Below are positions 61,576-63,269 of a stretch of DNA of 64,000 nt, in pieces (position 1 is the stretch's first letter; each line of letters opens with the position of its first letter). Under the pieces are notes generated by a model, which worked only from the letters and a program-made list of their open reading frames with translations, searched no databases and was not told the DNA's origin. The position numbers and the translations under genes are program-made. The stretch comes from Marivirga arenosa (GTDB lineage: Bacteria > Bacteroidota > Bacteroidia > Cytophagales > Cyclobacteriaceae): contig NZ_CP129970.2 in NCBI RefSeq assembly GCF_030503895.2, positions 2,651,001 to 2,715,000 on the forward strand, read 5' to 3'.

Positions 61576-62685
61576 ATGGAAAATTTTGTTGTATCAGCAA
61601 GGAAGTATAGACCAAAAGGATTTGATGAAGTAGTAGGACAAAAACACATTACTACTACTTTAAAAAACGCTATTGATAATGATCATTTAGCGCAATCTCT
61701 ACTTTTTTGTGGTCCTAGAGGGGTAGGTAAAACTACCTGCGCTCGAATTTTGGCCAGACTGATCAACGATTTTGATGTAGATAATATGGAGGGTTCTTCT
61801 TCCTTAAATATCTATGAGCTAGATGCAGCTTCTAATAATTCCGTGGATGATGTTAGAAATCTTATTGATAAGGTAAGAGTACCCCCTCAGCACGGAAAAT
61901 ATAAAGTATATATTATAGATGAGGTTCACATGCTTTCAAATGCAGCATTTAATGCATTCTTGAAAACATTGGAAGAGCCACCGTCTTATGCAATTTTTAT
62001 TCTGGCTACAACGGAAAAGCATAAGGTAATCCCAACTATTCTTTCCAGATGTCAGATCTATGATTTTAATAGAATAAAAGTATCTGATATATCAGATCAT
62101 TTGAAGGAAATTGCTGATAGAGAAGGCATAGAAGCAGAAGATGCTGCTTTGCACTTAATTGCGCAAAAGGCAGACGGAGCTTTACGTGATGCACTTTCTA
62201 TTTTTGATTTAATTGTTACCTTTTCGCCTGATAAAAAAATCACTTATCAAACTACCATTGATAATCTTCATATTTTAGATTATGATTATTATTTCAAGGT
62301 GACGGACGCTTTAAATGGTGAAAAAATTCCTGAAGCATTATTACTGTTTGACGAAATCCTGAAGAATGGCTTTGATGGTCATAATTTTGTAAATGGATTA
62401 GCCTCGCATTTTAGAGACCTTTTAGTTTGCAAAGATGCCTCTACTCTAGAGTTATTAGAAGTTTCGGATCAAGTAAAAGCGCAATATCAGGAGCAAGCGA
62501 AGAATGTTGACGCTTCATTCTTGCTATCTGGTTTACAGATTCTCAATCAAACGGATCAATCCTATAAAGCGAGTAAAAATCAGAGATTGGCAGTTGAGTT
62601 AGCTTTGATGAAGTTAGCAAAGCTCAATAGTGCTATTGATTTAGCGAAGCAGCAGGAAGAAGTTCTAAAAAAAAAAGTAAGCTAA
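61576..62685 (+). CDS. dnaX: DNA polymerase III gamma/tau subunit, zero-frame product (gamma-like)
   Basis: A 369-aa clamp-loader ATPase. It begins VVSARKYRPKGFDEVVGQKHI, with Walker A GPRGVGKTT (about 46-54), Walker B VYIIDEVHMLS, sensor 1 ILATTEKHKVIPTILSRCQ and the DGALRDALSIFD sensor 2 region. Domain III (about 225-355) is present. The frame stops three codons after a run of ten A (62667-62676), ending VLKKKVS. The four-cysteine zinc module found between Walker A and the DAASN element in most bacterial DnaX is absent: the region reads ARLINDFDVDNMEG and then LNIYELDAASNNSV. This frame alone gives a gamma-like protein that lacks the C-terminal tau part. Confidence 0.93.
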   Translation: MENFVVSARKYRPKGFDEVVGQKHITTTLKNAIDNDHLAQSLLFCGPRGVGKTTCARILARLINDFDVDNMEGSSSLNIYELDAASNNSVDDVRNLIDKVRVPPQHGKYKVYIIDEVHMLSNAAFNAFLKTLEEPPSYAIFILATTEKHKVIPTILSRCQIYDFNRIKVSDISDHLKEIADREGIEAEDAALHLIAQKADGALRDALSIFDLIVTFSPDKKITYQTTIDNLHILDYDYYFKVTDALNGEKIPEALLLFDEILKNGFDGHNFVNGLASHFRDLLVCKDASTLELLEVSDQVKAQYQEQAKNVDASFLLSGLQILNQTDQSYKASKNQRLAVELALMKLAKLNSAIDLAKQQEEVLKKKVS

Positions 62686-62732
62686 GTGAGCAGTCTGACT
62701 CTGAAGATGAGTCATCTTCAGTAAAAAAGACT
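62654..62732 (+). other. candidate frameshift signal in dnaX: A-rich slippery run with upstream AGGA and downstream inverted repeats
   Basis: A run of ten A (62667-62676) spans zero-frame codons CTA AAA AAA AAA, followed by GTA AGC TAA. Tandem A AAA AAA heptamers are in the right phase for -1 slippage. Upstream, AGGAAG (62654-62659) is placed as an internal Shine-Dalgarno stimulator would be. Downstream, CTGAAGATG (62701-62709) and CATCTTCAG (62713-62721) form a perfect 9-bp stem with a 3-nt loop; an outer AGTCT/AGACT pair (62692-62696, 62728-62732) extends it. The main stem is 24 nt from the run, farther than in E. coli dnaX. Confidence 0.6.
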
Positions 62733-63269
62733 TCCATTGCTGACCAGATGGCTGCTAAGGCCAGACAGAATAAGCCATTAAAGTCAGCTCCTTCAATTCC
62801 AAAGCCAGGAGAGTCCGTTCAGAAAAAAACTGAAGAGAAAAAACCTAATCCAATAGTTGGCACTTCTTCTGAAGAATCATCTGAAGAAATGAGTACATCA
62901 ACTGTTCAGAAGCTAGATTTAAATGCAGAGGAGTTAAAGAAAGTAGTAAATCAGTTCGTTGAGCAAAATAAAGTAGGACCTTTAGTTGAGAACTCATTAA
63001 AAAACTCCATTCACTTAGAAGAACAGATGATTACGGTTGAATTATCAAATCCCGTTGAGGTTGATGGTATTGAAAAAATAAAGGCTGATTTTCTAAACTT
63101 TATTCGAGCTAAATTTCAAAATCAGGAAATTCAATTGCAACATCATGTGAATATCGAGAAGGCAGCAGAAAGGCCGTACACTCCAAAGGAGAAATTTGAT
63201 GCTATGATGAAGGAAAATCCTCTTCTTGGTAAATTGCGAGATACTTTCGGCTTGGATCCTGATTATTGA
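62676..63269 (+). CDS. dnaX: DNA polymerase III tau-specific C-terminal region (-1 frame)
   Basis: The -1 frame is open through the A-run and encodes 197 residues, SKLSEQSDSEDE to FGLDPDY. Joined to the first 367 codons of the zero frame it gives a protein of 564 aa. The region begins with an acidic and Ser-rich linker and a Lys-rich stretch (SVKKTSIADQMAAKARQNK), then a folded domain (about 62915-63269: LDLNAEELKKVVNQFVEQNKV, MITVELSNPVEVDGIEKIKADF, YTPKEKFDAMMKENPLLGKLRDTFGLD). The last part resembles Bacteroidota tau C-terminal domains, so it is under selection rather than junk. A separate start at the internal ATG 62748 is possible but would lack the linker. Confidence 0.75.
   Translation, partial: SKLSEQSDSEDESSSVKKTSIADQMAAKARQNKPLKSAPSIPKPGESVQKKTEEKKPNPIVGTSSEESSEEMSTSTVQKLDLNAEELKKVVNQFVEQNKVGPLVENSLKNSIHLEEQMITVELSNPVEVDGIEKIKADFLNFIRAKFQNQEIQLQHHVNIEKAAERPYTPKEKFDAMMKENPLLGKLRDTFGLDPDY

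Follow-up and report, generated by a model that had tools for sequence, protein, structure and literature searches.

A conserved ten-adenine run at the gamma/tau junction of dnaX in Marivirga and other Bacteroidota, a probable site of transcriptional slippage

Recoding at the junction of the gamma and tau parts of dnaX has been described in several bacteria, and the accessible passages of three publications provide the background for the present locus. The dnaX gene of Thermus has mRNA of mixed length and nearby stops in both frames (PMC1088944, PMC5009743). Antonov et al. (2013; PMC3711429) reported 17 dnaX genes composed of two ORFs in 12 genera, nine of them with 10 As; recoding is needed there for tau, and transcriptional realignment was suggested. 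A reversed dnaX logic has likewise been described in PMC5009743. The dnaX gene of Marivirga has this reversed logic as well, as the initial annotation had recognised, with the unshifted template giving gamma. Because the reversed layout with A10 already appears in the accessible text of PMC3711429, the layout of the Marivirga gene is not new.

The split dnaX gene of Marivirga

The window is the whole stretch of 64,000 nucleotides of the Marivirga arenosa genome that was analysed. Among the ten genomes of the genus, three agree with named Marivirga records in all of the first 1400 bases of the dnaX region compared. Its dnaX gene consists of two ORFs that meet at a run of ten adenines (Table 1). 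Across the run the zero frame reads CTA AAA AAA AAA GTA AGC TAA, the stop being the third codon past A10, and the -1 frame meets no stop within the run or for about 197 codons past the shift. The initial annotation had described the split, the zero-frame stop and the open -1 frame correctly, along with two in-phase A_AAA_AAA heptamers, an AGGAAG upstream and a perfect 9-bp stem beginning 24 nt 3' of the run. The stop that immediately closes the third frame was absent from its description.

Table 1. Coordinates of the features of the dnaX locus in the window.
Feature	Position	Strand	Basis
dnaX, two ORFs joined at the A10 run	61576..63269	+	ORF list, sequence
Zero-frame ORF, gamma, 369 aa (AAA+ clamp-loader ATPase, lid, domain III)	61576..62685	+	Pfam, NCBIfam
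SD-like AGGAAG, probably incidental	62654..62659	+	SD-like 4-mer in 3/10 genus genomes
A10 run, putative slippage run	62667..62676	+	equal length in 10/10 Marivirga genomes
A_AAA_AAA heptamer, first in phase	62667..62673	+	
A_AAA_AAA heptamer, second in phase	62670..62676	+	
tau-specific C-terminal region, -1 frame	62677..63269	+	PRK14971 match, dN/dS
TAA, immediate stop in third (+1) frame	62678..62680	+	sequence
gamma stop TAA, zero frame	62683..62685	+	sequence
9-bp perfect stem, 3-nt loop, probably incidental	62701..62721	+	2/10 genus genomes
ATG-started ORF, 173 aa	62748..63269	+	
TGA closing the -1 frame	63267..63269	+	

Both pieces of the gene look real. In Pfam, the gamma ORF matches DNA_pol3_delta2 (1.7e-34), DNAX_ATPase_lid (5.9e-13) and DNA_pol3_gamma3 (1.6e-09), and in NCBIfam it matches model positions 1-373 of 614 of PRK14971 (2e-195). 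The tau piece matches nothing in Pfam at E values up to 1, but in NCBIfam it matches positions 417-612 of 614 of PRK14971 (E = 3.4e-17), which is the C-terminus of this gamma/tau model; either piece by itself scores under the whole-protein cut-off of the model. The tau-only region is under purifying selection, with a dN/dS of 0.12-0.35 in the seven of nine Marivirga comparisons in which it was computable. For gamma the ratio was 0.02-0.04 in six of nine comparisons, and all these values are rough because most pairs approach saturation at synonymous sites. NCBIfam also holds separate long and short gamma/tau models, PRK14954 (620) and PRK14955 (397), of which the short one may be an annotation artefact of split dnaX genes such as that of Marivirga. 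The DnaX protein of E. coli carries a Cys4 zinc-binding insert between Walker A and the DAASNN motif. The Marivirga DnaX core (window 61700-61850) seemingly lacks this insert, and relatives of family f34 align to Marivirga DnaX only from query residue 71-72, as if the insert were retained in them.

When relatives were compared, as the initial annotation had advised, the second genome of the species and eight further Marivirga genomes were found to carry the same A10 and the same split; in 10 of 10 genomes the zero frame is of equal length and A10 stands at the same place. The A10 split of dnaX is not due to chance. The Marivirga genome (3.94 Mb, one contig) contains 16 distinct runs of at least ten adenines on either strand, overlapping matches being merged, and 11 of the 15 runs other than that of dnaX are in contact with no stop-to-stop frame of at least 80 codons. 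An ABC-type ATPase ORF is the sole clear gene-like frame among these 15; its A10, at C1:516786-516795 (L334), falls in a plausible ABC-transporter ATPase ORF of 210 codons from stop to stop. A/T runs of 11-15 at C1:533125, 535683, 548702, 2554000 and 2556277 (L335, L336, L339) have a common AAATC 5' flank on the A strand, and four of the five can be sorted by eye into two groups by the similarity of their opposite flanks. These five runs look as if they were copies of a small dispersed repeat.

Conservation of the run and the encoded frame across the phylum

The survey set comprised 300 loci (L031-L330), from which six unparsable loci and seven duplicates (first 900 bases of the core identical to another locus) were removed, leaving 287 unique loci, and the run scored was the longest A-run within codons 325-430 after the RKYRP motif. 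The set is not random. It combines the nearest named relatives (80), the loci that scored highest in each search, and chosen regions: every second list row plus seven more in the class sample, at least one locus per family outside the class, and loci picked by hand across the families of the order sample. Two of the 100 class-sample loci end at a contig edge and were counted as they stand.

A run of 9-12 adenines occupies the site in 254 of the 287 unique dnaX loci. The lengths are 10 (206 loci), 9 (30), 11 (17), 12 (1), 8 (1), 6-7 (10) and fewer than 6 (22); elsewhere in the sampled dnaX genes, runs of at least nine adenines number seven in 390,154 bp. Among the nearest named relatives, A9-A11 is present in 79 of 79 parsed loci (80 fetched). 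Runs of at least nine adenines are also found in 64 of the 70 loci read in the order sample (289 of 292 genomes with a match), in 86 of 99 loci parsed from the class sample (146 genomes with a match, 100 loci read), and in 22 of 36 parsed loci outside the class (40 read), the run being shorter than nine or absent in 13 of 99 and 14 of 36 loci of the latter two groups. Because the gamma part has a GC content above 50% in 29 of the 254 run-bearing loci, and because AAG makes up a third of the lysine codons that precede the run (1899/5727), the run is no simple by-product of composition. Among the matches listed in the open-access literature, none described phylum-wide conservation or frame flips of this dnaX site. 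An apparently broken replication gene would be a conserved expression device, and annotation pipelines may well call such dnaX genes frameshifted or split, with 146 of 254 loci encoding tau in the -1 frame.

In the remaining run-bearing loci, tau is encoded in the zero frame (103) or in the +1 frame (5). Both non-tau frames stop within seven codons in 220 of the 254 loci, compared with 8212/42114 (19.5%) and 11128/62037 (17.9%) of control codons; where other A5-A8 runs end, the proportion is 15.8% (280 of 1771 positions). Mapping onto a FastTree phylogeny of the gamma core shows at least 34 switches of the encoded product between gamma and tau (50 label shuffles: mean 79.24 changes, minimum 70); tree error may inflate the 34 changes, and near pairs display flips directly. 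L287 and L288, for instance, which belong to the same genus, are of one contig each and are 98.8% identical in the gamma core, have A9 encoding gamma and A10 encoding tau, respectively. Similarly, L034 (Splendidivirga) encodes tau with A11 and L117 encodes gamma with A10, the nine bases past the run being identical. The five loci with tau in +1 (L070, L153, L203, L234 and L306, with A9-A12) all come from multi-contig draft assemblies, in which the run length could be wrong; with tau in +1, they are beyond the reach of a single -1 ribosomal shift.

From these observations we consider that Marivirga dnaX probably makes gamma and tau from one gene via transcriptional slippage of the Thermus type. 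Slippage is favoured because the runs are A9-A12 with a mode of 10, because stops close both non-tau frames, and because the template frame is free, including the five +1 loci. RNA polymerase would slip on the A10 template and generate mRNAs of mixed A-run length, of which those read in the template frame or the third frame would end within a few codons as gamma. mRNAs with one A more (or two fewer) would encode tau, with the ATPase/oligomerisation core joined to the -1-frame region. The product spelled by the DNA would matter little under such a mechanism, and it flips between related species. The length optimum at 10 lies within the range known for RNA-polymerase slippage, for which the accessible text of PMC1088944 gives A9 in Thermus. 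We infer RNA polymerase as the slipping enzyme, the production of both proteins, and their ratio.

Ribosomal and other explanations

The initial annotation had proposed programmed production of gamma and tau at the A-run, with a -1 frameshift or slippage as candidate mechanisms, and had doubted the stem as a classical stimulator. In a -1 ribosomal shift, ribosomes reading gamma would slip back one base at A_AAA_AAA(_A) to yield tau, and the window itself offers two in-phase heptamers, the SD-like AGGAAG and the 9-bp stem. Since any A10 holds A_AAA_AAA in every phase, such a shift could serve 249 of the 254 loci and, as it predicts, the -1 stop is kept tighter than the +1 stop in the tau-encoding relatives (within seven codons in 100 vs 83 of 103). 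An SD-like motif adjoins the run in 26 of 254 loci and is found further upstream in 0 of 254, and a looser SD-like pattern adjoins it in 103 of 252, although the enriched stretch often encodes Glu/Gly. Downstream folds are slightly stabler than expected from mononucleotide shuffling (n = 252; mean z -0.50, sd 1.35; 12.7% below -2), a weak general fold signal at A10 sites, and the genus members L005 and L012 fold differently from the window but nearly as strongly (-18.4 and -20.2 vs -21.5 kcal/mol, 70 nt). One sister-family genus (g86, see below) also appears to use a ribosomal site. However, the presumed stimulators are unconserved within Marivirga: the SD-like 4-mer lies upstream of the run in 3 of 10 genomes, two of which are the window's species, and the 9-bp stem occurs in 2 of 10, both of that species, the other eight genomes having perfect stems of at most 3-6 bp. 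SD and stem were rejected as stimulators for this reason; an in-phase heptamer of the E. coli type is present, and a conserved SD and a conserved nearby stem are absent. Programmed gamma/tau production at the run was supported, and the classical ribosomal shift with SD and stem was not. A slippery run of seven bases would suffice for ribosomes, yet 254 of 287 loci keep 9-12 adenines; moreover, the third frame is closed as well, tau lies in +1 in five loci, and SD sequences are seldom used in Flavobacterium johnsoniae, a model species of the Bacteroidia, according to the accessible text of PMC8710568. We regard programmed -1 ribosomal frameshifting as unlikely.

Sliding of ribosomes on poly(A), through which translation would lose the frame in both directions on a long A-run, has been reported for E. 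coli ribosomes and would likewise make long runs and the closure of alternative frames advantageous. In the reconstituted E. coli system, as far as the accessible text of PMC4363877 goes, out-of-frame product was robust with A11 and little with A9 and A10, yet the mode here is A10 and 30 loci have A9, and we judge such sliding to be quite improbable at this site. The ATG-started ORF of 173 aa would permit two separate proteins, gamma and, through reinitiation at ATG 62748, a free C-terminal protein. This ATG stands at tau-frame index 25 only in both genomes of the window's species, the first start-like codon of the other eight being at index 22 (TTG, one genome) or 61-103, and gamma and tau share a frame in 103 of the 254 loci with a run; reinitiation was rejected because the start is unconserved, and it has hardly any probability left. 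A missing base in the homopolymer had been the main alternative in the initial annotation, in that homopolymers are error-prone and a one-base change unites the dnaX frames into one truly intact gene. A sequencing or assembly error was rejected, and its probability is negligible, since the same A10 and split are common to 10 of 10 genomes of the genus, some of which consist of a single contig and one of which is the second genome of the species, and the -1 placement of tau recurs in 66 of the 79 nearest named relatives that were parsed.

A contrasting A7 genus and relation to described systems

Four genera of family f12, which is in the same order (g30, g95, g100 and g104), supplied 33 loci. 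A10 is present in 32 of them, with varied codons past the run, and A9 in one (L406), and an SD-like motif occurs in 7 of 33. For genus g86 of this family, 38 loci were read (35 of 41 genomes drawn plus three more; L344-L373, L376, L377, L379-L381, L383, L386 and L388), 37 of which have exactly A7 at about dnaX codon 375. In these 37 loci tau is encoded in the zero frame, the -1 frame being closed after two codons. An SD-like motif is located at -16 to -5 in 30 of 38 loci and further upstream in 0 of 38, and the run is followed by a 5-nt spacer and a near-invariant element whose arms, GGTAG/CTACC and GGCACC/GGTGCC, are in a pseudoknot arrangement. The codons of the arms show almost no variation, silent positions included, while codons 3, 4 and 7 between the arms vary. 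The proposed pairing holds in 92.4% of cells vs a maximum of 53.3% when slid. Covariation in this pseudoknot is not above shuffles because the arms barely change, and the two inner pairs added to stem 1 do not form in 19 and 18, respectively, of the 35 distinct rows. With its silent-site invariance and its fit, the element is a candidate H-type pseudoknot. The g86 site resembles a ribosomal frameshift site of the E. coli type and seems to have replaced the slippage run, and we infer the direction of change, from A-run slippage to the A7 ribosomal site.

The remaining g86 locus, L347 (G592, one contig), has the same element with A6, which places gamma in the zero frame and reverses the logic; a base-calling error may account for this A6. 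In genus g274, the two loci L374 and L375 have A6/A7, GGAGG upstream and, by eye, a GCCGG...CCGGC hairpin, with gamma in the zero frame and tau in -1. Together with L347, they look like a reversed version of the ribosomal-type site.

For the Bacteroidota as a whole, we think it rather likely that the template frame of dnaX is approximately selectively neutral, with A10 spreading the transcripts and one-base changes flipping the frame, and that the A7 genus swapped transcriptional for translational recoding. In the open-access literature, with genus names guessed, none of the matches listed described the g86 A7/pseudoknot dnaX site, nor did any listed match present a contrast between slippage and frameshifting at a homologous dnaX site. 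The frame flips and the A7/pseudoknot genus form a natural comparative set for slippage and ribosomal frameshifting at one homologous site.

As described in the accessible passages of the cited papers, four systems bear comparison with Marivirga dnaX. Shigella flexneri mxiE resembles it in that transcriptional slippage is needed for the longer product; it differs in having a U run in the RNA and in being an unrelated gene (PMC1088944). The -1 frameshift of E. coli dnaX involves the same gene, the same product pair and an A-rich slippery stretch (PMC5009743, PMC3711429), whereas Marivirga has no SD or stem conserved in the genus, a longer A-run and a reversed product logic. Thermus thermophilus dnaX (A9) shares the long sense-strand A-run and the stops in both non-tau frames (PMC1088944, PMC5009743), and the window correspondingly has a homopolymer of at least nine and a close TAA in each non-tau frame. 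The Thermus template, however, encodes tau and yields gamma by slippage, whereas the Marivirga template encodes gamma. The dnaX cluster of Antonov et al. (2013) is like Marivirga in its two ORFs, the -1 direction, the poly-A junction and the recoding for tau. In Marivirga the gamma and tau ORFs adjoin by a -1 shift and the poly-A of the junction is conserved in relatives, and there is no essential difference from the cluster as the accessible text presents it; what is added beyond that text is the phylum-wide survey and the flips of the encoded frame.
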